Positions 2,750 through 19,592 of a stretch of 64,000 nt of DNA are shown one piece after another. Positions within the stretch are counted from its first letter, which is position 1. Each line of letters opens with the position of its first letter. This DNA is from Bacteriovoracia bacterium (GTDB lineage Bacteria > Bdellovibrionota > Bacteriovoracia > Bacteriovoracales > Bacteriovoracaceae). The notes below the pieces were generated by a model, which was not told where the DNA came from, searched no databases, and was given only the letters and a program-made list of their open reading frames with translations. The DNA lies in contig JAUIIL010000001.1 of assembly GCA_030431635.1 (NCBI GenBank), positions 372,001 to 436,000 of the forward strand, written 5' to 3'. The translations under genes and the position numbers were made by a program.

Positions 2750-2776
2750 AAAAAGCCCTCTTTTTTAAGAGGGCCT
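2750..2776 (-). terminator. Rho-independent terminator of the histone-doublet gene
   Basis: Read on the minus strand, an 8-bp stem (GCCCTCTT/AAGAGGGC, loop AAAA) is followed by TTTTT. It lies just downstream of the gene ending at 2812 and upstream of the lipoprotein gene starting at 2700, so it separates the two transcripts. Confidence 0.8.
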
Positions 2777-2811: not shown

Positions 2812-3207
2812 TTATTCTATTGTTGGTTCAGTAAAATCTCTGTCCATTACAGTCTTTCTTTTGCTACTTTTAGCATTTTCAATAGCTTTTAAACAGGCTT
2901 TTTGGACTCTAACTGTTAACTGATCAAAGGCTTGAGAAGAAGTGCTTAGACCTTCTTTATCTTTGATATATTTTTTCACTTTTGAGGCCACAACAAGAGA
3001 CTCATCAATACTTGGGTTTTCAACGTAAATGCTGAAGTCTCGTCCCATCACAGTCTTTCTTCCTGCTTTTTTTGCTTGAGCAGAACCAGAATCAAGTGAA
3101 GCGATAAGATCTTCATTCAATTTTTCAAAAAAGTTAGCACTTGTACTAAGGCCAGCTTGGTCTTTAATAAACTTTTTGACTTTTGATACAACAACTAGGT
3201 TATCCAT
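2812..3207 (-). CDS. Bacterial histone doublet (two tandem histone folds)
   Basis: This 131-residue protein is an internal duplication. Residues 4-60 and 71-126 align closely: LVVVSKVKKFIKD..GLSTS against LVVASKVKKYIKD..GLSTS. Each half ends in RKTVMGRDF or RKTVMDRDF. This matches the loop-2/alpha-3 region of archaeal histones (AGRKTIKAEDI in HMf-type proteins), including the Arg and Asp of the R-D clamp (R50/D57 and R117/D124). Single-fold histones are known in Bdellovibrio bacteriovorus (Bd0055), where they bind DNA in an unusual mode; here two folds lie in one chain, so one molecule could form a pseudodimer. ATG at 3207 is chosen because GGAGAAG sits three bases upstream; the in-frame ATG at 3219 overlaps that ribosome site. 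It is probably a nucleoid protein. The histone assignment rests on motif and repeat pattern, without a structure search. Confidence 0.82.
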   Translation of the reverse strand: MDNLVVVSKVKKFIKDQAGLSTSANFFEKLNEDLIASLDSGSAQAKKAGRKTVMGRDFSIYVENPSIDESLVVASKVKKYIKDKEGLSTSSQAFDQLTVRVQKACLKAIENAKSSKRKTVMDRDFTEPTIE

Positions 3208-3241
3208 GGGCTTCTCCATTTGAAATTAATCTCATTGCCAG

Positions 3242-3264
3242 TGTAGGGCCCAGTTGGGCCTACA
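3242..3264. repeat. Inverted repeat in the histone-gene leader
   Basis: TGTAGGGCCCA and TGGGCCTACA form a near-perfect inverted repeat (one bulged G) around a 2-base centre, 35 bases upstream of the histone start. It could be an operator or an mRNA hairpin. Confidence 0.6.
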
Positions 3265-3306
3265 AGCAAGCTGCAAAGTGGCGAGAGCCTTTATGATGCG
3301 ATGCTT

Positions 3307-3312
3307 ATTATA
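3307..3312 (-). promoter_or_regulatory. Possible -10 box for the histone-doublet gene
   Basis: TATAAT occurs on the minus strand about 100 bases upstream of the histone start. No convincing -35 box is seen at 16-18 bases, so the call is weak. A transcript from here would carry the inverted repeat at 3242-3264 in its leader. Confidence 0.35.
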
Positions 3313-3353
3313 CTTTATTATTGAATAAGAGCAGTTTTAGAGCTAAGTTATTG

Positions 3354-3369
3354 ACTTGATTTATCAAGT
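3354..3369. promoter_or_regulatory. 16-bp palindrome before the lipid/olefin operon (candidate operator)
   Basis: ACTTGAT-TT-ATCAAGT is a perfect inverted repeat ending just before the ribosome site (GTGAGG) of the ketosynthase gene. Its size suits a dimeric repressor, but no cognate regulator is identified. Confidence 0.45.
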
Positions 3370-3380
3370 GAGGATGTGAA

Positions 3381-4622
3381 TTGGCCCTAGAGGATAGAAT
3401 CGTCATTACGGGAATTGGTCTAACTGCTCCCAATGGTAATAATCTTGCAGATTTTAGAAAATCCATGATTGATGGTGTTTCAGGTATTACAAAAACTCAA
3501 ATTCGTTATATGGGAGAGCAAGCTGCTGGCTTATGTGATTTTGATGAAAGAAAATACCATTCTAAAAAAGCAAGACGTCGGGGAACAAGAGCAGGCTCTA
3601 TTGCTATTTATTGTGCTAATGAAGCCCTTAATGATGCTGGAATAGAAAAAGAAGCGCTCGAAAAAGATAGATGTGGTGTTTTTATAGGGATTACCGAGCA
3701 TGGTAACGTTGAGACAGAAAACGAAATTTATGAACTTCACCAAAACGACCTTGATACAAAGCTTTGGACTCCTCACCATAACCCAAGAACTGTGGCCAAC
3801 AATCCAGCAGGAGAAATCACTCTTAATTTGGGGATTACTGGGCCACACTATACAATAGGCTCTGCTTGTGCTGGTGGTAATGCTGGTATCATTCAAGGAG
3901 TTCAACAATTAAGGCTTGGTGAAATTGACGTGGCCATTGCTGGGGGAATTTCAGAGAGTCCTCAGACTTTTGGTATTTTTGCAGGTTTTGGTGCTCAAGG
4001 GGCTTTAGGCTACGATAGTGAAGATGTCACAAAAAGTATTCGTCCTATGGATAAGAATCGTCAAGGTACGGTTATATCGGAAGGGGGCTGTCTCTACATT
4101 CTTGAGAGATATGAGTCAGCGAAAGCCCGTGGAGCAAAGATTTATGGAGAAATTATTGGTTATGCACTTAATTCAGATGCAACTGATTACGTAAATCCTT
4201 TTACTCAGAGGCAAGCAGAATGTATGAGACTGGCATTAAAGAGGGCCGGTATTAGTGAAGAGGACGTTGATATAGTTAACATGCATGCAACGGGAACAGG
4301 AGCGGGTGATATTTCTGAAGCTGCCGCAATCAATATGCTTTTCTCTCAATGTGAGAAAACATATGTGAATTTTTCAAAAGGTCATATTGGTCATTCAATG
4401 GGAGCTGCTGGTGCTTTAGAACTTGCTGGTAACTTACCTGCTTTTGAAGATGGAATTGTTCATTTAGGTCTTAATGTTGATGAAATCGACCCAGAATGCG
4501 AGATGAGAAATTTAGTGATTAAAGAATCAAAATATGTTGGAGATATCAATATTATTTTGAATAATTCATTCGGAATGTTGGGAATTAACTCAACAGTGAT
4601 TGTAAAAAAATTAAAAAAATAA
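3381..4622 (+). CDS. FabF-like 3-oxoacyl-ACP synthase (KAS II family)
   Basis: The 413-residue thiolase-fold condensing enzyme is normal in length for FabF. The full catalytic set is visible: Cys163 in GSACAGG, His302 in MHATGTGAGD, and Lys333/His338 in KGHIGHSMGAAG. It should condense malonyl-ACP with an acyl primer. It starts with TTG; the nearby ATG (3374) is followed directly by a stop, GTG (3376) runs into a stop after four codons, and GTGAGG lies upstream. A dedicated ACP gene follows after 25 bases, then a CrtI-like oxidoreductase and oleABCD. This points to a secondary fatty-acyl or polyketide-like pathway, not the housekeeping fatty acid synthase. Which chain it makes cannot be read from the sequence. 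Confidence 0.9.
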   Translation: MALEDRIVITGIGLTAPNGNNLADFRKSMIDGVSGITKTQIRYMGEQAAGLCDFDERKYHSKKARRRGTRAGSIAIYCANEALNDAGIEKEALEKDRCGVFIGITEHGNVETENEIYELHQNDLDTKLWTPHHNPRTVANNPAGEITLNLGITGPHYTIGSACAGGNAGIIQGVQQLRLGEIDVAIAGGISESPQTFGIFAGFGAQGALGYDSEDVTKSIRPMDKNRQGTVISEGGCLYILERYESAKARGAKIYGEIIGYALNSDATDYVNPFTQRQAECMRLALKRAGISEEDVDIVNMHATGTGAGDISEAAAINMLFSQCEKTYVNFSKGHIGHSMGAAGALELAGNLPAFEDGIVHLGLNVDEIDPECEMRNLVIKESKYVGDINIILNNSFGMLGINSTVIVKKLKK

Positions 4623-4647
4623 ATATTAAGGTTTGAAGGAGTTTAGA

Positions 4648-4896
4648 ATGTCCCCAGAAGAAGTTAGACAAGTTGTTATTGATATCATCGCTGATATTGC
4701 ACCTGATGAAGAACTTGATAATCTAAAAGACGATGTAAGCTTAAGAGAGCAGCTTGATCTGGATTCTATGGACTTTTTGGATATTGTGATGGAATTAAGA
4801 AAGCGCTATAAGATTGAAGTTCCTGCTGATGATTATCCTCAGCTAGCTTCTTTAAGTAGCTGTGTTAGCTATTTAACTCCTAAAATGGTTCAGTAA
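4648..4896 (+). CDS. Dedicated acyl carrier protein
   Basis: This is an 82-residue acidic, helical ACP with the 4'-phosphopantetheine attachment site LDLDSMDFLD (Ser40). The ATG at 4648 is preferred because GGAG lies eight bases upstream; an upstream TTG at 4633 overlaps that site. It sits between the FabF-like ketosynthase and the CrtI-like oxidoreductase and probably carries the growing acyl chain for them. The motif is DSMDF, not the DSLD of housekeeping AcpP, which fits a specialised carrier. Confidence 0.9.
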   Translation: MSPEEVRQVVIDIIADIAPDEELDNLKDDVSLREQLDLDSMDFLDIVMELRKRYKIEVPADDYPQLASLSSCVSYLTPKMVQ

Positions 4897-4904
4897 AGAT
4901 ATCA

Positions 4905-6305
4905 ATGAATGGGCCTTCTTTAGATGCTATCATCATTGGGGCCGGCATGTCGGGGTTGGCAGCAGGCATACGTCTTGCGATGTATGATAAGAAAGTTGTC
5001 ATTTTTGAAAAGCACTCTATTGCTGGAGGGCTTAACTCTTATTATCAAAGAAAGAATCTTCAAAGTAATGGTCTTCGAAAATTTGATGTTGGACTTCACG
5101 CCCTGACTAATTACATTGAAAAAGGGGAAAAGGGAAAACCCTTTAGCAAACTTCTAAAACAACTAAGAATTAAATATGATGATTTTAAGATTTGTCCTCA
5201 GAGTTTTTCTCGAATCCAGTTTCCTGATGCTCATTTAAAATTCTCTAATGACTTTGAACTTTTACGTGAGGAAGTTCATGCAAAGTTTCCTGGTCAAAAA
5301 GATGGATTTGAAAAACTTGTTAAGTATATTAGTGAGTTTAATGAATTAAGCCTTGAACTTGACTACACTTCCTCAAGAGAAAAACTGAAAGAGTACCTAT
5401 CAGAGCCACTCCTTCTCGAAATGCTATTATGCCCACTTCTTATCTATGGCTCCGCCTGGGAAGAAGACATGGACTTTGCTCAATTTGTGGTGATGTTTAA
5501 ATCTATCTACTTCGAAGGTTTTTCTAGACCCGAGGGAGGAGTGCGCACCATTATCGACCTTCTGATTGAAAAGTATAGGTCTCTTGGAGGAGTTCTTTGT
5601 TTTAAAGAGCCAGTAGAGAAAATTCTAACCAAAAATGAAAAGTGCATAGGAGTGAGAACGACAAAGGGAGAGTATTTTTCAAATAAGGTTTTCTCTTCAG
5701 CTGGTTTACCTGAGTCTTATAAGCTCGTTGAAGGAAAAATAAGTCATGAAGTGGGTAAGTTAAGTTTCACGGAGTCTATTCTTTGTCTTGATAAAAAAAT
5801 TTTACAAAAAGATTTAAAGGAAACCATTATTTTTTATAATTCTAAAAATAGTTACACCTATAAAAAACCATCGACTTTGTTTGATGACACTAGTGCTGTT
5901 TTTTGTTGTCCTGATAATTACGAATCTCATGATAATGAAGGGGAAGGAATTATTAGAATTACCTATATGGCCAATTATGATTTATGGAAGAATCTCGACA
6001 GAGAAACATATCTTAGAGAAAAAGAGCGTGTTTTTGAATCGGCTTTAAAGCTTACTCGAAAACTAGTCCCTGATTTCAATCAAGAGATTCTTTTTAAAGA
6101 TGTGTTTACTCCAACAACTATTGAGCGTTATACATGGCATGAACAGGGAACTGTTTATGGAACCCCTAAAAAGGTAAGAAATGGTAAAAGTCGATATGAT
6201 GGGCTCTATATTATTGGAACAGATCAAGGTTTTTTAGGAATTGTGGGGTCAATGCTCTCTGGAGCTTCTATAGCAAATCTGTATGGCCTTATGGAGGGAC
6301 AATGA
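4905..6305 (+). CDS. CrtI/phytoene-desaturase-like FAD oxidoreductase (A)
   Basis: This 466-residue flavoprotein has an N-terminal dinucleotide-binding fold (IIIGAGMSGLAAG, then acidic FEKH and AGG about 30 residues on) and the C-terminal pattern of phytoene desaturase/carotenoid isomerase/RetSat relatives (ERYTWHEQGTVYG, then GLYIIGTDQGFLGIVGSMLSG). No phytoene synthase or prenyl synthase gene is nearby; it lies between ACP and oleA. A role in desaturating, saturating or isomerising an acyl chain is therefore more likely than carotenoid synthesis (inference). It overlaps oleA by ATGA. A paralogue with the same ERYTxH motif is at 18108-19592. No clear ribosome site is seen before ATG 4905. 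Confidence 0.8.
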   Translation: MNGPSLDAIIIGAGMSGLAAGIRLAMYDKKVVIFEKHSIAGGLNSYYQRKNLQSNGLRKFDVGLHALTNYIEKGEKGKPFSKLLKQLRIKYDDFKICPQSFSRIQFPDAHLKFSNDFELLREEVHAKFPGQKDGFEKLVKYISEFNELSLELDYTSSREKLKEYLSEPLLLEMLLCPLLIYGSAWEEDMDFAQFVVMFKSIYFEGFSRPEGGVRTIIDLLIEKYRSLGGVLCFKEPVEKILTKNEKCIGVRTTKGEYFSNKVFSSAGLPESYKLVEGKISHEVGKLSFTESILCLDKKILQKDLKETIIFYNSKNSYTYKKPSTLFDDTSAVFCCPDNYESHDNEGEGIIRITYMANYDLWKNLDRETYLREKERVFESALKLTRKLVPDFNQEILFKDVFTPTTIERYTWHEQGTVYGTPKKVRNGKSRYDGLYIIGTDQGFLGIVGSMLSGASIANLYGLMEGQ

Positions 6306-7333
6306 ATTTTCAAAAAACCTTCATTGATTCTTTTGCCTATGAAACTCCTCCCAACTATTACACCTCAGAAGAAGTAGAAAAAGAATTAGCGCCCGTTTAC
6401 CAAAGATTAAAACTTCCAGAAGGAAGATTAGAGCTTCAAACAGGTATTAAGAGAAGAGGATATTGGGATATTGGAACCAGACCAAGTGATATTGCGACCA
6501 AGGCAGCTTTAAAACTACTTGAAAAATCTCAAATTAAAAAAAATGAAATTGATCTTCTTATTTTCTCATCTGTTTGTCGTGATTTTTTAGAGCCCGCGAC
6601 TGCGAGTGTTGTTCACTATAACCTTGGGCTTTCATCACATACACAAAGTTTTGATCTCTCCAATGCCTGTTTAGGTGTTCTTAACGCAATTGATATTGCG
6701 TCCAAACTCATCGAAGGGAATTCAATTCGAAATGCTCTCATTGTCTCTGGAGAAAACTCTGGTCCTCTACTAAAAGAGAGCTTTAAGTTTCTTAATGAAA
6801 ATATGAATTTAACAAGAAAGAGTATAAAAAAATATATCGCGAATCTCACAATTGGAAGTGCAGGTGTGGCAGTAATGATGTCACATGAAAACTATACTTC
6901 ATCCAAACATCAACTCCTTGCTGTTCAGTCGATGTCAGACACGACGACAAATCATTTATGTCAGGGAAGCGGAACAACTGAGGGGCTGATGATGGAAACA
7001 GAGTCAGAAGAGCTTTTGCATGCGGGGATTTCTCTCGCTCACAACAATTGGCAAATACTAAAGAAAAAACTTAACTGGGAAAATGAGACTCCTCAAAAAA
7101 TTATTACTCATCAGGTAGGAGTTGCTCATAGAGATCTTCTTTTTAAGTCACTGAAGCTTGAAAGAGAAAAAGATTTTTCTACTTTCGAAATGTTTGGTAA
7201 TACAGGCTCAGCTGCTCTTCCCTTAACTGTTATGTTAGCTGATGAGAATCATTTTCTTAAAAGTGGGGATTTATGTGCTTTTTTAGGGATAGGTAGTGGG
7301 TTGCATTCAATTATGATGGGGGTAAAGTGGTAG
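6302..7333 (+). CDS. oleA: OleA, head-to-head acyl-CoA condensing thiolase
   Basis: The 343-residue FabH/thiolase-superfamily enzyme has catalytic Cys123 (SNACLGVLNAID), His270 (THQVGVAHRD) and Asn300 (MFGNTGSAALP). Glu97 (FLEPA) matches the position of the glutamate that OleA uses as a base to join two acyl chains. OleA performs non-decarboxylative Claisen condensation of two acyl-CoA molecules to a beta-keto acid. Assignment is strong because the next three genes are oleB, oleC and oleD in the standard order. Its ATG overlaps the stop of the upstream FAD enzyme, implying coupled translation. Confidence 0.93.
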   Translation: MNFQKTFIDSFAYETPPNYYTSEEVEKELAPVYQRLKLPEGRLELQTGIKRRGYWDIGTRPSDIATKAALKLLEKSQIKKNEIDLLIFSSVCRDFLEPATASVVHYNLGLSSHTQSFDLSNACLGVLNAIDIASKLIEGNSIRNALIVSGENSGPLLKESFKFLNENMNLTRKSIKKYIANLTIGSAGVAVMMSHENYTSSKHQLLAVQSMSDTTTNHLCQGSGTTEGLMMETESEELLHAGISLAHNNWQILKKKLNWENETPQKIITHQVGVAHRDLLFKSLKLEREKDFSTFEMFGNTGSAALPLTVMLADENHFLKSGDLCAFLGIGSGLHSIMMGVKW

Positions 7334-8211
7334 AGAAAATTGAAGTTCATCAAAGAACAAAATCACCTTTTCAAACTCTTTATCCTTTTCGATCAAATTA
7401 TTTGAAGATAGGAGAAAATAAATATCATTTTATTAACGAGGGAGTCGGTGAAACAATTTTGATGTTACACGGAAACCCAACATGGTCTTTCTACTACCGG
7501 AATTTGGCCAAGATACTAAGACGGAATTATCAGGTTGTTGTTCCTGATCATATGGGATGTGGGCTATCAGACAAGCCACAAAACTATGAATACACACTTG
7601 AAAACCATATTTTTAATGTTCTCTCTCTTATAAAAGAACTAAAAATTGAAAAATTTCACTTAATCGTTCACGATTGGGGAGGAGCTATTGGCTTTGGTGT
7701 GGCCAAAGAGCTGAAAGAGAGGGTGAAAAGTATTACGATTATGAATACGGCGGCTTTTGAAAGCGATATGATTCCAAAAAGAATAGCTTTCTGTCGGAGT
7801 GCTATAGGTGGTTTTTTAGTTCAAGCGCTTAATGCTTTTGCGTGGCCCGCGACTTTTATGACAACAACTAAACCCTTATCTCATATTATCAAAAAAGCGT
7901 ATCTTTACCCTTACGATTCTTTTAAGAACCGTATCGCGATTAAGAACTTCGTTAAAGATATTCCCATGGAAAAAGAGCACAGAAGTTATGCTCTTTTGAA
8001 ATCAATAGAGGAGTCTCTTCCTCAAATCAAGTGTCCTAAACTTATTCTTTGGGGGGCTGATGATTTTTGTTTTAATCGCTCTTTCTATGAAAAATGGTGT
8101 CAAATCTACCCAGAGGCACAAGCTCATTTATTTGAAAAGACAGGGCACTATGTTTTAGAGGATGCTTTTGCTCAATGTTTACCTCTCATCAAAGCATTCT
8201 TAAAAAAATGA
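7327..8211 (+). CDS. oleB: OleB, beta-lactone decarboxylase (haloalkane-dehalogenase-like fold)
   Basis: This 294-residue alpha/beta hydrolase resembles haloalkane dehalogenases: oxyanion-hole motif HGNPTWSFYYRN, nucleophile Asp116 in VHDWGGA, likely acid in LWGADD, and His274 in KTGHYVLED. OleB family members convert cis-beta-lactones to cis-olefins with loss of CO2. The GTG start at 7327 lies 7 bases inside oleA, with GGGGG just upstream. It ends in an ATGA overlap with oleC. Alone it could be read as a dehalogenase; the operon decides the call. Confidence 0.92.
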   Translation: MVEKIEVHQRTKSPFQTLYPFRSNYLKIGENKYHFINEGVGETILMLHGNPTWSFYYRNLAKILRRNYQVVVPDHMGCGLSDKPQNYEYTLENHIFNVLSLIKELKIEKFHLIVHDWGGAIGFGVAKELKERVKSITIMNTAAFESDMIPKRIAFCRSAIGGFLVQALNAFAWPATFMTTTKPLSHIIKKAYLYPYDSFKNRIAIKNFVKDIPMEKEHRSYALLKSIEESLPQIKCPKLILWGADDFCFNRSFYEKWCQIYPEAQAHLFEKTGHYVLEDAFAQCLPLIKAFLKK

Positions 8212-9818
8212 ATATAGCTGACTTCATTGACAAAAATGCAATTGAAATCCCAGAGAGGAAATCAATTATTTGTTCTGATTCAAGTGGAGAGTATACCACT
8301 TATACTTTTAAAGAATTTCATTTAAGGTGTAATCAATTTGCTAATACTCTAATAGATAGAGGAGTTCAAAAAAGTGATAAAGTTCTTCTTTTTGTAAAAC
8401 CTTCTCTTGATTTTTCAGTTCTTGTTTTTGCTTTATTTAAAATAGGGGCGATTCCCATCTTTATGGATCCAGGAATGGGGCGCAAAAATCTTCTTCACTC
8501 TATCAAACAGTGCCGCCCAGATATTATGATTTCTGAGTGGCAAGTAAGTGTGATTAAGTTTTTTTATTTAAATATTTTTCAATCGATCAAAAAAACAATT
8601 ATTTTTGGAAAGGTTCCTTTTTTCAAGGAATCTTCTTTCAAAAAACAGTCAAAAGAAAGCAGTGCCTTATTTACGAATGCTCATATGGATGAGAAAGAAA
8701 TGGGGGCCATTTTATTTACTTCTGGTGGAACAGGAATACCTAAAGGAGTAGTCTATACGCAAGAGATTTTTAAACAACAAACTCTCATGCTTAAAGAGAT
8801 GTATTATTTAACACCTCAAGAAGTTGATTTACCCGGTTTCCCTCTTTTTTCTCTTTTTACTCTCGCTATTGGAATGAGCAGTTGTATTCCAGAGATGAAT
8901 CCAGCGAAACCTGCTCAAGTCGATCCTCAAAAAGTGGTTAAGAACATTATTGATAATAATGTGACTTTTGCAGCAGGCTCTCCTGCTATTTGGGATGTTG
9001 TTGCTAAGTATTGTATTGATAAAAACATGACCCTCTCGAAGGTCAAATATCTTGTTATGTTTGGGGCGCCTGTTTCCATAGAACTTCATGAAAAACTTAT
9101 AAAAATTCTTCCTCATGGCAACACGTATACCCCTTATGGAGCGACTGAATGTCTCCCCATAACTCATATCTCTGGACGTGAGGTTTTGGAAAAATATAAA
9201 GAGGGGTTTTTAAATGGAGCTGGTGTTTGTGTGGGAATTCCACTTAAAGGAGTTGAAGTTAAAATTATTAAGATAAGTGATGAGTTTCTTACGTCATTTG
9301 ATAAAGTAGAAGAGCTTGAGCAAGATTGTATTGGTGAAATCATAGTCTCTTCACCTACGGCCACTTCTGGTTATTATATGATGGATGAGCAAACACAAAA
9401 GGCCAAAATATATCAAGGTCATAAATTATGGCATCGAATGGGTGATGTTGGTTATCTTGATAAAGAAGGGAGTCTTTGGTTTTGTGGCCGTAAGGCCCAT
9501 AGGGTAGAACTTGAAAATAAAACTCTTTATAGTGTTCCAACTGAGTCTTATTTTAATCAGCACAGTGACGTTAAAAGAAGTGCTCTTATTCGTTATAAAG
9601 AGAAGAGTGCCGCTATTGTTATTGAACGTCATGATAAGAAGACCCACTTCACTTCTTTAGAGAAGGAGCAATTTATCCTTGAGTTAAAAAAGGTTGCTTA
9701 CCATTTCAGTGAACTTGATGAGATTAAAGAATTCTTTTTTAGTGCTGGTTTTCCAGTTGATGGACGACATAATATAAAAATTAATAGAGAGCAATTGGCC
9801 AATGAGTATGGGAAATAA
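8208..9818 (+). CDS. oleC: OleC, beta-lactone synthetase (AMP-binding superfamily)
   Basis: This ANL-superfamily adenylating enzyme is about 536 residues long. The ATP-binding loop is FTSGGTGIPKGVV, and TPYGATE and GDVGYLD motifs follow. OleC activates the beta-hydroxy acid made by OleD with ATP and closes the beta-lactone; earlier annotations call such proteins acyl-CoA synthetases. I take ATG 8208, which overlaps the oleB stop as ATGA; the in-frame ATG at 8175 lies inside oleB and adds 11 residues without family support. Confidence 0.92.
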   Translation: MNIADFIDKNAIEIPERKSIICSDSSGEYTTYTFKEFHLRCNQFANTLIDRGVQKSDKVLLFVKPSLDFSVLVFALFKIGAIPIFMDPGMGRKNLLHSIKQCRPDIMISEWQVSVIKFFYLNIFQSIKKTIIFGKVPFFKESSFKKQSKESSALFTNAHMDEKEMGAILFTSGGTGIPKGVVYTQEIFKQQTLMLKEMYYLTPQEVDLPGFPLFSLFTLAIGMSSCIPEMNPAKPAQVDPQKVVKNIIDNNVTFAAGSPAIWDVVAKYCIDKNMTLSKVKYLVMFGAPVSIELHEKLIKILPHGNTYTPYGATECLPITHISGREVLEKYKEGFLNGAGVCVGIPLKGVEVKIIKISDEFLTSFDKVEELEQDCIGEIIVSSPTATSGYYMMDEQTQKAKIYQGHKLWHRMGDVGYLDKEGSLWFCGRKAHRVELENKTLYSVPTESYFNQHSDVKRSALIRYKEKSAAIVIERHDKKTHFTSLEKEQFILELKKVAYHFSELDEIKEFFFSAGFPVDGRHNIKINREQLANEYGK

Positions 9819-10800
9819 GAAAGAAAAAGTTCTTGTCACTGGTGGAGGTGGCTTTTTAGGGAAGGCCATTATCAAATTTCTTATTCAAGATGAATTTGAA
9901 GTCTTCTCTTTTTCAAGAAGCTATTATCCAGAGCTTGAATCTTTAGGGGTTACGTGCATTCAGGGAGATTTAACAAATTATACAGATGTGAAAAGGGCCT
10001 TGGAGGGAATAGATGGGGTTTTTCATGTGGCCGCTTTGGCCGGAGTTTGGGGGAAGTATGAAGACTATTTTCAAACGAACGTCATAGGAACTAAAAATAT
10101 TGTCAATGCTTGTCTTGAGCTTGGAATCAAAAAACTGGTGTATACCAGCAGTCCAAGTGTTATCCTTGATAGTTCTGAATCATTATCTGGGGCCAATGAA
10201 AGTTTGGATTATCCTCAAAAATACTCAAATTTTTATGGAGAAACAAAAGCTGTGGCCGAACGTTATGTACTTTCTTCTAATGGAGAAAAAATATCAACAT
10301 GTGCACTCAGACCCCATTTAATATGGGGACCTGGTGACCCGCATATTTTTCCTCGAATATTTGGTAAGGCCCAAAAAAAACAACTAAGAATTATAGGAGA
10401 TGGGCTTAATAAGGTTGATATTATTTTTGTAGAAAACGCAGCGAAAGCTCACCTTCTCGCTTATAAAAAGCTAGCTCACCTTAGTGAGGTTGCTGGCCAA
10501 GCTTATTTTTTAGGTCAAGAAGAAGAAGTTTTTCTTTGGGATTTTATTAATGAGGTTCTCAAGAGAGGAGGATATAAAGCTATTAAGAAGAAAATACCAT
10601 TCAAGCTTGCTTATTTTATTGGATTCATATTTGAAGTTTTTTACCGAGCTTTGAGAATAACAAAAGAGCCTCCTCTGACAAGATTTGTTTGTAATCAACT
10701 TGGAAAGGATCATTATTTTTCTCATCAAAAAGCCAGGGCGCATTTTGGGTATTGTGCGGAAATTTCAACGCAAGAAGGACTTAATAGATTTTTTCATTAG
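9802..10800 (+). CDS. oleD: OleD, NAD(P)-dependent 2-alkyl-3-ketoalkanoate reductase
   Basis: This 332-residue extended short-chain dehydrogenase (3-beta-HSD type) has the nucleotide-binding motif VTGGGGFLG near residue 12 and the catalytic Tyr-x3-Lys in FYGETKAVAE, with TSSPSVI supplying the serine. OleD reduces the OleA product to the beta-hydroxy acid used by OleC. It overlaps the end of oleC by 17 bases (11 if ATG 9808 is the start). It is the last gene of the operon, converging with a phosphoesterase gene 7 bases away. Confidence 0.92.
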   Translation: MSMGNKKEKVLVTGGGGFLGKAIIKFLIQDEFEVFSFSRSYYPELESLGVTCIQGDLTNYTDVKRALEGIDGVFHVAALAGVWGKYEDYFQTNVIGTKNIVNACLELGIKKLVYTSSPSVILDSSESLSGANESLDYPQKYSNFYGETKAVAERYVLSSNGEKISTCALRPHLIWGPGDPHIFPRIFGKAQKKQLRIIGDGLNKVDIIFVENAAKAHLLAYKKLAHLSEVAGQAYFLGQEEEVFLWDFINEVLKRGGYKAIKKKIPFKLAYFIGFIFEVFYRALRITKEPPLTRFVCNQLGKDHYFSHQKARAHFGYCAEISTQEGLNRFFH

Positions 10801-16152: not shown

Positions 16153-16953
16153 TTAAAGAAGCTCTTTTGCTGCGCTTTTAACGAGGTTCTCATCAAAACC
16201 ATTACAATTCATACCGGCGTCGACGTAAACTGTTGTCGCGTTAATTCCAGAGGAGCGCTCACTTAGAAGAAAGAGAGCAGTATCGGCAACTTCTTGTGTT
16301 TGAACGGCTTTCTTTCTAAGAGTCATTTGTTCAGAGAAAACGTAGTTTTCAATATAATTAGGAATTCCCGCTGAAGCGGATGTTTTAAGTGGACCGGCAC
16401 CAATGGCATTAAATCTTACTTGAGAAAACAAGCTAAAGCTTTTTGCCAGATAATGAACATTAGATTCTAGCATGGCCTTAATAGGACCTAAATAACCATA
16501 AGAAGTGGCCTTCGTATTTGAAATGGAAATAGTTATGACAGATGCTTTTTCTTTTAAAATATCTTTGAGCTGATTGGCCAAAAGAGTAAGAGAAAAACAA
16601 GAAATCCTGCAAGCTTGAGCGTAGTCTTTCCAGCTTGTTTCATGAAAAGCTTTAAGGCCATCAGAAAAATTAGCAAAAGCTATAGAATGAACAAAGCCAT
16701 CAAGTTTAATCTCTTTCTCGTTTAGGTGCTTTGTGAGTAATTCAATCTGATTATCATCTTCAACATTACAAACAATAATCTCTGAGTCAGGAAAGAGTTT
16801 TTGCGCTTTCTCTAAATTCTCTTCATTTTGAACAGTTAAAAAGACATTGGCCTTTTGCTCTAGAAGAGCTTTTGCAATAAAAGTGGCTACACTTTTTTTA
16901 TTGGCCACTCCACAAATAAGAAAATTTTTATTTTCAAGGTTTAGATAACTCAT
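16153..16953 (-). CDS. FabI-like enoyl-ACP reductase (SDR)
   Basis: The 266-residue protein shows the FabI pattern: N-terminal ICGVANKKSVATFIAKAL, SIAFAN in mid-sequence, and Tyr152-x6-Lys159 (SYGYLGPIKAMLESNVHYLA), the enoyl reductase spacing. FabI reduces the trans-2 double bond of acyl-ACP with NAD(P)H. It overlaps the FabZ-like gene by ATGA. Its sequence departs from housekeeping FabI in several places (for example CGVANKKS for the usual xGVANxxS and no AERA motif), so it may be a pathway-specific paralogue. Confidence 0.8.
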   Translation of the reverse strand: MSYLNLENKNFLICGVANKKSVATFIAKALLEQKANVFLTVQNEENLEKAQKLFPDSEIIVCNVEDDNQIELLTKHLNEKEIKLDGFVHSIAFANFSDGLKAFHETSWKDYAQACRISCFSLTLLANQLKDILKEKASVITISISNTKATSYGYLGPIKAMLESNVHYLAKSFSLFSQVRFNAIGAGPLKTSASAGIPNYIENYVFSEQMTLRKKAVQTQEVADTALFLLSERSSGINATTVYVDAGMNCNGFDENLVKSAAKELL

Positions 16954-17381
16954 AACTTAGTGTTTTCAACAATCGTGCAAGCAAAATCAATTGTCATGAC
17001 AGTTTTGTTATTGCTGGTTATTTTTCCTTTCATATAAGCAGCACTACCAAGCATTTCTTTTAGTTCAACTTCTATTGTGAGAGTTTCACCTGGTCTCACT
17101 ACATTTTTAAATTTAACTCCCTGAATTCTTGTGACAAGAGCTGTTGTTTGCTCTTGTGCTTTTTCTCCGTGATAACTCATAAGAAGAGCGCCTGTTTGAA
17201 AAGCCGCTTCACATTGAATAACACCAGGAAGAATAGGGTTACCAGGAAAATGGCCCTTAAAAAAATCCTCATCTCCTGTAATTTTTTTCTGAGTGACAAT
17301 TCTATTTTCAACTCTATCAATCACTGTATCAATAAAAAGAAAAGGGGGACGTTGAGGGATTCTATCGAGAAAATCAAGCAT
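16950..17381 (-). CDS. FabZ-like 3-hydroxyacyl-ACP dehydratase
   Basis: The 143-residue hot-dog-fold enzyme has catalytic His44 (KGHFPGNPILPG) and Glu58 (IQCEAAFQTGA), and the N-terminal IPQRPPFLFID expected of FabZ. It dehydrates beta-hydroxyacyl-ACP. Its start overlaps the FabG-like stop as TAATG and its stop overlaps the FabI-like start as ATGA, so the three reductive-cycle genes are translationally coupled. Confidence 0.88.
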   Translation of the reverse strand: MLDFLDRIPQRPPFLFIDTVIDRVENRIVTQKKITGDEDFFKGHFPGNPILPGVIQCEAAFQTGALLMSYHGEKAQEQTTALVTRIQGVKFKNVVRPGETLTIEVELKEMLGSAAYMKGKITSNNKTVMTIDFACTIVENTKL

Positions 17382-18121
17382 TAAAGACCTCCAGTCACTT
17401 CGAGAGTACTTCCAGTTATATAAGAAGCTTCTTTTGAAGCAAGAAATAAAACAGCACTGGCCACTTCATGGACTTGGCCAAAGCGCTTCATGGGGACACT
17501 CTTTTTATATTCACTTATTTGCTCTGTTGGTAAATCTGAAATAAGTTCAGTTTCAATAAACCCTGGGGCCACACAATTAACGGTAATCTTTTTCTTTGCT
17601 ACTTCCTTACTTAAGCTCTGAGTTAGAGCAATTTGACCAGCTTTAGAGGCCGCGTAATTGGCCTGTCCATTAAGACCCAACTTACCACCAATAGAGCTCA
17701 TATTAATAATTCTGCCATAGCGGTTTTTAAGAAAATGCATGACCGCAAGCCGGCTCATTAAAAACGTTCCTTTTAAATTAATATCGAGGACTTTATCCCA
17801 GCTCTCTTCACTCATCGTGGCCAGCAAAGAGTCAGAGCGAATCCCTGAATTATTAACCAAAACATGGATTTCTTCAGCTTCTTGTTCAATTTCCTGAAAA
17901 GCTCTCTCGCAATCTTGTCCTTGAGAGACGTCAAATTTTTTTAAAATAAGTTTCTCTGCATATTGAGAGTTCTCTTCTTTAAACTGCTGAGCGGCTGATT
18001 CGTTACGAGTGTATGTTGCAAACACTCTTGCTCCCTCTTTAAGGAAGCTCTCGGTGATTCCACGGCCTATACCTCTGGTTCCACCTGTAACAATAATATT
18101 TTGGTTTTCAAATCGTCGCAT
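17381..18121 (-). CDS. FabG-like 3-oxoacyl-ACP reductase
   Basis: This classical short-chain dehydrogenase of 246 residues has the cofactor motif [15 protein letters not shown], catalytic Ser in SSIGG, and ANYAASKAG (Tyr-x3-Lys). The start is placed at ATG 18121 because AGGAG lies five bases upstream; a longer frame would run into the upstream gene. It overlaps the CrtI-like gene by 14 bases. It presumably reduces beta-ketoacyl-ACP in the same pathway as the FabZ- and FabI-like enzymes that follow. Confidence 0.88.
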
Positions 18122-19592
18122 GTTGCTCCTGTGATTGATAATCATTTGATTTTTTTTGTCCAAGCTCTTTTTCAAGTTGGTAGAGATAACTCTCAACTTC
18201 ATTAGCTTGAATCACTCCATAGTTGGCAGCTCCAAGCCAGCCAGACATGATAATGCCAACTGAACCACTATGGAAAAGTCCTGGAATCTGTTTGTGTAAA
18301 TTCATACTTACTTCAAGACCTTCAAATTTAGTTCCAAAAGATGACCCCTTTTTGTGATGAGTATATCTCTCAACAGTCTTTGGAGTCGCGCATTCGATGA
18401 AATCAAGTTTTTCTCTGATGTTAGGAATAAATGTTTCAAGGCTTTTAAGAGTATCCTCAATAAGTTTTTCTTTTTCTTGAGCATATTCTTCTTCATTTAA
18501 TGAAGCCCAGTCTTCATATTGAGCGTTTGTTGATGAAACAATATAGTATTTTTCAATTTCTTCCTGTGGTCTTGTTTCTGGATAATAAACTGAAAAAGTT
18601 CGGCTGGTGACATTTTTATCTAAAAGCTCTTTGGTATTAAAAGTCTTGGCAGTCGAAGTAAAAACAAGGTCTCCTATAAAAGGAATTGATTCACCTTCTT
18701 TAATGGCCATATAGACTTGGCAGCTACTTGAGTTAAGCCTTACTGCTTTTGCTTTCTGGATAAATTCGTCGGAAAAATACTCTTCTCCAGTCATATCAAA
18801 AATAGTGCTTAAAAGATTTGAGTTTGAAAGCACCGCTTGAGAAGAGATAAAATCTCCATCAAGCATGATCCCCTTCGTTTTACCTTCTTCAATCACAATC
18901 TTTTCAACTTTTGAATGCATTTTAATATCAACGTTATTCTTAAGGAGTTCGTCTCTCATCATCCTAATCATGAGATCAGTTCCTCCACTAAAAGTGTAAA
19001 CTCCTTTACTCATAAAATTAGAAAAGACAATTCCATAAGTGATGGCAGGGTCTTCTAGGGTAGAGCCGTTAGCATAAGTGATAGGCTCCATTAAAAAACG
19101 AACAACGTCACTACGGTTAGGGAAAAACTTGGCAAAAAGCTCTTTATTTGTCATTTCATGGCCATCGTAGAAGTTCATAGAGCTTACATAATCAAAAAAA
19201 TCAGAAACCGTTTTCTCGTTGATATTGAAATGCTGAATTAGTTTTTGGGTAAAATCTTCTCGTGTAAATTCTGTATCAAGTTCAAACTCAGGATTAACAA
19301 AGCGGACCCCCTTAAGTTGAATGATCTTATCAGCGATTTCTTTGTTCCAATACTTACGACAAGTTTTTTTCATTCCAATAGGAAAGCCATGGAGTGAGAC
19401 ATCAAAGATATATTTTTTCTGGGCCCGGTAAAACCAAGTAGCGAATCCACCTAACTTATTATGGGCCTCGAGCAGAAGAACTTTATGGTTATTTTTAGCG
19501 AGCTTATTAGCGGCTGTTAGACCAGCTAAACCACTACCAATAATGATTACATCATATTCGTTTTCAATTTTTTGATTTCTCTTTAAAAGCAT
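18108..19592 (-). CDS. CrtI/phytoene-desaturase-like FAD oxidoreductase (B)
   Basis: The 494-residue flavoprotein has an N-terminal FAD motif ([23 protein letters not shown]) and a C-terminal [13 protein letters not shown] followed by [20 protein letters not shown], the CrtI/CrtISO/RetSat pattern. It is paralogous to the enzyme at 4905-6305 and leads an operon with FabG-, FabZ- and FabI-like genes. Two such enzymes beside acyl-chain genes and no carotenoid genes suggests action on acyl chains. This is an inference; the reaction could be desaturation, saturation or isomerisation. Confidence 0.8.

Follow-up and report, generated by a model that had tools for sequence, protein, structure and literature searches.

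A single-chain histone doublet of the HBb type in Bacteriovoracaceae and its conserved ketosynthase neighbourhood

Does a bacterial protein that carries two histone folds in one chain handle DNA as a histone dimer does, and does it serve the whole nucleoid or a single operon? The question is raised by a small gene near the start of the window, a stretch of 64,000 nucleotides from a Bacteriovoracia bacterium (contig JAUIIL010000001.1, positions 372,001 to 436,000). A first-pass annotation, made from the sequence, had described two tandem repeats with the motifs VxxSKVKK[FY]IKD, GLSTS and RKTVM[GD]RDF. The repeats are present as described. Aligned without gaps, the N-terminal half (N half) and the C-terminal half (C half) are identical at 28 of 58 positions (48%), and the BLASTP E value of this match, 1e-16, indicates that the repeat is not due to chance.

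A gene with two histone folds

The gene has the span given in the first-pass annotation, lies on the minus strand and encodes 131 amino acids plus a stop codon from an ATG at position 3207, giving a protein of 14.5 kDa with a pI of about 9.3 (Table 1). This start was chosen because homologues begin there (MESLIV...) and because GGAGAAG is a good ribosome site for it. An alternative in-frame ATG at 3219, which would give 135 amino acids and overlaps the GGAGAAG ribosome site, was dropped. Two-half homologues in 46 of 129 Bacteriovoracaceae genomes, together with a median dN/dS of about 0.2 in each half (a rough value, with many pairs saturated), show that the gene is real and under selection. 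Its codon adaptation of 0.655 ranks 7th among the 62 open reading frames of the window, six ribosomal genes having 0.67–0.75; the score is compatible with good expression, although as evidence for abundance it is weak. A phage or mobile origin was rejected: there was no match in 50,697 phage records or in viral contigs, and the plasmid matches are half-length haloarchaeal sequences only, about 35% identical. At the edge of the window, the minus strand of positions 1–2702 holds a frame of about 900 codons that runs off the window start and has a lipoprotein-like beginning.

Table 1. Positions of the doublet gene, its parts and the neighbouring features in the window. A1 is an alignment of 23 doublets.
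Feature	Position	Strand	Basis
Doublet histone gene	2812..3207	-	Open reading frame and homologues
N-terminal histone fold, residues 2–58 (predicted helices 7–18 and 24–47, one-turn α3)	3034..3204	-	AlphaFold2, A1
Linker, residues 59–68, with nearly invariant aromatic Y61	3004..3033	-	A1
C-terminal histone fold, residues 69–125 (predicted helices 74–85 and 91–114)	2833..3003	-	AlphaFold2
RKT of loop 2, N half (HBb R51-K52-T53)	3052..3060	-	Invariant in aligned doublets
RKT of loop 2, C half	2851..2859	-	Invariant in aligned doublets
Shine-Dalgarno-like GGAGAAG ahead of ATG 3207	3211..3217	-	Direct sequence
Terminator-like hairpin GCCCTCTT-N4-AAGAGGGC, T tail on minus strand, downstream of the doublet	2755..2774	.	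Sequence and scan
Divergent intergenic region, doublet / ketosynthase operon	3208..3380	.	
Beta-ketoacyl synthase (KS), first gene of the divergent operon	3381..4622	+	Pfam PF00109/PF02801, synteny
Acyl carrier protein (ACP), FAD amine-oxidase/CrtI-like, ACP synthase III (OleA-like), alpha/beta hydrolase (OleB-like), AMP-binding (OleC-like), NAD-dependent epimerase-like (OleD-like, by eye)	4633..10800	+	Pfam, open reading frames

The PDB sequences closest to the doublet are HBb, the histone Bd0055 of Bdellovibrio bacteriovorus (8cmp/8fvx, E 6e-12), then 9qt0. The histone models of Pfam and NCBIfam match it only below their cut-offs (PF00808, 16.1 bits versus 21.4; NF043032, 26.2 versus 50); weak matches to Bunya_RdRp, CENP-T, OmdA and other Pfam models, also below cut-off, were taken as chance. 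The first-pass comparison with archaeal histones can be made sharper: HBb is a far better match, and the archaeal/eukaryotic Pfam models stay under their cut-offs.

The AlphaFold2 model of the single chain, for which A1 was the input, has a pLDDT of 93.4 and a pTM of 0.87 and predicts two short-α3 histone folds, with a 24-residue α2 and a one-turn α3 in each half. Both handshake folds, on whose presence the first-pass annotation had made its proposal depend, are found in the model, which along with its structural matches supports a histone doublet in Bdellovibrionota with the predicted fold of a one-chain pseudodimer. The C half of the model superposes on HBb (9f0e/8cmp) at 0.5–0.6 Å. Compared as a whole (Foldseek, VIA-align), the model matches single chains of H2A-H2B with a Z of about 11 over 127–130 residues, a value that by itself can reflect a common arrangement among helical proteins, followed by the Melbournevirus doublets (Z about 10), the Methanopyrus double histone 1f1e (Z 9.7, with a full-chain identity of only 12–20%) and the DUF1931 protein 1wwi (Z 8.9). 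The comparisons of sequence and of predicted structure agree on this fold assignment.

DNA-contact residues and the place of the doublet among histones

HBb binds DNA with no sequence preference through N22, R57, S9, T53, T8, S24, K10, K12, K52 and K16, with a clamp formed by R51 and D58, a list of contacts derived from crystals and simulations (Hu et al., PMC11317129). In HBb numbering, S9, K10, K12, K16, R51, K52, T53 and D58 are identical in all N halves (17/17) and all C halves (17/17) compared; R57 is R or K, N22 is mostly N or S, and S24 is kept in 16 of the 17 halves of each type. T8, a contact seen in simulation, is not kept, being V, I or L in N halves and mostly A in C halves. Across the doublet family, the best-conserved columns of A1 are largely the DNA-binding ones. 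Because both halves retain nearly all the HBb contacts examined, bending as by HBb is the default expectation, and the first-pass suggestion that the doublet handles DNA differently from HBb is unsupported as stated.

HBb-type histones are characterised by a short α2 and an α3 of 3–4 residues, and the modelled doublet has both. Like HBb, each half also carries RKTxxxxD and the α1 lysines. Unlike HBb, a single fold of about 60–65 amino acids that forms a homodimer, the doublet joins two diverged copies in one chain as a fixed heterodimer, and an alignment search of the window genome found no single-fold HBb-type histone beside it. Having two folds in one chain, it is a variant of the HBb type and not a plain member. 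It differs from nucleosomal HMfB-type histones, in which an α3 of about 10 residues provides for dimer stacking, in that its own α3 is a single turn. ZZ histones, which are common in Bacteriovoracaceae and coexist with some doublets, share the HBb-like histone fold but combine one such fold with an N-terminal zinc domain, whereas the doublet has two folds and no cysteine-rich N-terminus. The pseudodimer architecture itself recurs in archaeal double histones (Methanopyrus 1F1E, Haloferax HstA) and in the viral doublets of Melbournevirus, none of which is, to our knowledge, of the short-α3 HBb type.

On the strength of sequence, model and analogy with HBb, we consider it fairly probable that the doublet is a single-chain HBb-type pseudodimer and DNA bender that acts as a nucleoid protein and perhaps also in the control of the ketosynthase operon. 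The chain would fold on itself, one polypeptide offering the L1-L2 and α1 contacts to DNA as the HBb homodimer does, and, if HBb is a guide, would bind and bend DNA without sequence preference, about like one HBb dimer. With its partners locked together by the fusion and no longer alike, the doublet would be a lasting heterodimer whose two faces differ. A nucleoid role is probable, because no other histone was found in the window genome, which also has three HU/IHF-type genes. Its position suggests that it may additionally control the divergent ketosynthase operon. Hypernucleosomes, stacking and face-to-face tetramers would not be expected, given the single-turn α3 and the absence of the residues with which face-to-face histones build tetramers.

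Face-to-face histones form a torus-shaped tetramer, and doublets might likewise associate with one another into larger assemblies able to wrap or bridge DNA. Pairing via α2/α3 is possible in principle, face-to-face histones occur in the same class (PMC11390915), and Bacteriovoracaceae have face-to-face-like singlets (L094–L096, L099). We nevertheless regard such an assembly as improbable: the conserved arginine and asparagine of the dimer–dimer interface, which stand just before RKT in the face-to-face-like L094–L096, are by eye missing from both doublet halves, α3 in the model is one turn, and the halves fall among the HBb-type and ZZ histones, a long way from the face-to-face-like ones. Hardly credible to us is a DUF1931-like protein without DNA function, even though the published bacterial double histones are of the DUF1931 kind, pseudodimers such as 1R4V (Aquifex AQ328) and 1WWI (Thermus) that share with the doublet two histone folds in one bacterial chain, overlap with it in fold in the case of 1WWI and are described as having no DNA-binding residues (PMC12701072, PMC13088155). 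DUF1931 is, however, a separate sequence family, of which no Pfam match (PF09123) was found in the doublet protein or in the whole window genome, and the DNA-contact residues reported absent from DUF1931 (PMC12701072) are invariant in both doublet halves.

Distribution and origin of the fusion

A search across Bdellovibrionota, which the first-pass annotation had proposed as a check, places the doublet in one family. Among 290 genomes of the phylum, full-length matches were found only in Bacteriovoracaceae, where the 46 genomes represent 12 of 48 genera; other families have HBb-type singlets and ZZ histones. Because a PF00808 search of the window genome was insensitive and missed the doublet gene itself, a histone-domain alignment (A2) was used instead, and its two matches in that genome are the two halves of the doublet. 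Some doublet genomes also have a ZZ histone (e.g. G138, G190, G088), and some have a further short face-to-face-like histone-fold match (e.g. G093, G227, G231, G237; match only).

ZZ-type histones, which combine a cysteine-rich N-terminus with an HBb-like fold in about 150–165 amino acids, are widespread in Bdellovibrionota including Bacteriovoracaceae (L037–L041, L053–L056, L080–L081, L083–L091, L097–L098). Relatives of about 100–150 amino acids that do not have the cysteines are encoded at L051, L052, L058 and L082.

In a tree of 57 columns, the N halves of the Bacteriovoracaceae doublets cluster together (72/77), as do the C halves (98/95), which is as expected from one old fusion in this family. 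The C half has stayed nearer to HBb-type singlets and the N half has its own conserved FFEPLN-type stretch; for the window protein, identity to singlets reaches 70% in the C half and 53% in the N half.

Doublets also occur in gammaproteobacteria (n=6, L143–L148), where the model again predicts two histone folds (pLDDT 89.7, pTM 0.84). The halves of these proteins are 68% identical to each other and 42–48% identical to the Bacteriovoracaceae halves, and their genes adjoin a YajQ/DUF520 gene at 6/6 loci, with Lgt and thymidylate-synthase-like genes close by. Another doublet, from an unplaced bacterium (L156:1762-2208), has halves that are 75% identical and looks like a recent tandem duplication. 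The higher half-to-half identity within the gammaproteobacterial and L156 doublets favours separate fusions in Bacteriovoracaceae and gammaproteobacteria. Constraining the tree to a single fusion made it 24 log-likelihood units worse with a p-AU of 0.19, a difference short of rejection, the 57 columns being too few, and a partial constraint gave p 0.42.

A doublet beside a ketosynthase operon where relatives have a winged-helix regulator

The neighbourhood of the doublet, which the first-pass annotation had missed, is more surprising than its architecture. The row of genes at 3381–10800 is inferred from its sequences to be an olefin- or polyene-type lipid cluster; the Ole-type names of the genes are likewise interpretive. 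A second fatty-acid-type set lies about 5–6 kb past this cluster on the minus strand (16153–19592) and comprises, named by eye, two short-chain dehydrogenases, a FabZ-like dehydratase and a CrtI-like oxidoreductase.

Where the flanks can be read, the doublet gene is divergent to a row of KS, ACP, FAD oxidoreductase and ACP synthase III (KASIII) genes at 41 of 43 loci (exceptions L121 and L141); two further loci start at a contig edge and lie outside the 43. An orthologous KS (58–65% identity) is present in 20 of 25 relatives that have no doublet, and in 19 of these 20 a protein of 203–255 amino acids is encoded just upstream of KS on the same strand (L197–L215). Pfam identifies all four such proteins tested as winged-helix regulators (TrmB, ArsR or HTH_27 over cut-off). 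No clear orthologue of this regulator was found in any of 19 doublet genomes, the best match having 33% identity (E 4e-13, G156) and the others E 6e-7 or worse.

The KS genes linked to doublets group in one clade of the KS tree (SH-aLRT 91), into which a single outsider, G032, falls. This genome has KS but neither doublet nor regulator, and beside its KS stands a transporter-like gene that is found next to doublets at other loci, as though a deletion had removed the doublet here. Read plainly, the tree calls for the histone to have replaced the regulator once and to have been lost once afterwards. Because only two changes are needed, the arrangement goes back in essence to a single event passed on by descent, and the 41 loci do not count as independent cases. 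The link between doublet and operon is not absolute, as G192 and G283, both draft genomes, keep the doublet and gave no orthologous KS.

Such a conserved neighbourhood might point to a local task for the doublet in place of a global one. More specifically, it may have replaced a winged-helix (TrmB/MarR-like) regulator and now control the divergent KS-ACP-FAD-KASIII operon, and perhaps itself, by binding to or bending the promoter region that the two share, with genome packaging being secondary. The near-constant divergent placement beside KS, the winged-helix protein that holds this position in relatives, its missing orthologue in doublet genomes and the location of G032 inside the doublet clade all speak for this possibility. 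Against it stand the single origin of the swap, the doublets of G192 and G283, the indifference of HBb to DNA sequence (PMC11317129) and the state of the intergenic region. There, visual inspection of other doublet loci did not reveal the inverted repeat of the window (TGTAGGGCC-N5-GGGCCTACA, 3242–3264), and no common operator is demonstrated; the stretch TTTGTATAGTGAACAATT, which recurs within one group of doublet loci, could be part of a promoter, and a consensus scan upstream of the doublet found no sigma-70 promoter. On balance, a mainly local regulator remains a doubtful if serious candidate. We would put slightly less trust still in the full scenario, that in one Bacteriovoracaceae clade the doublet displaced the winged-helix factor heading a lipid/olefin-type operon and has since been dedicated to regulating that operon. 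The HBb-type DNA bender with a probable nucleoid role, and perhaps this local one as well, is the reading we prefer.

Taken together, the doublet is a well-conserved variant of HBb-type histones that its sequence predicts to be competent for DNA binding. Double histones and HBb were already known, each separately. No doublet of the Bacteriovoracaceae type was found in the text of PMC11390915. Hocher et al. (PMC10627809) defined singlets by excluding DUF1931 matches and proteins of more than 65 amino acids, so doublet sequences may be present in their table without having been described.

By uniting the pseudodimer architecture with the HBb set of DNA-binding residues, the doublet offers a natural fused HBb dimer in which the effects of fusion and asymmetry on DNA bending can be probed. 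It also shows that histone doublets can arise from short-α3 bacterial histones, perhaps more than once. Finally, the exchange of regulator for histone lets the idea of a bacterial histone as local regulator be put to a direct test, a question that touches the wider relation of DNA packaging to gene control. If the doublet is indeed a dedicated regulator of the operon, it would be a bacterial histone acting as a local transcription factor.
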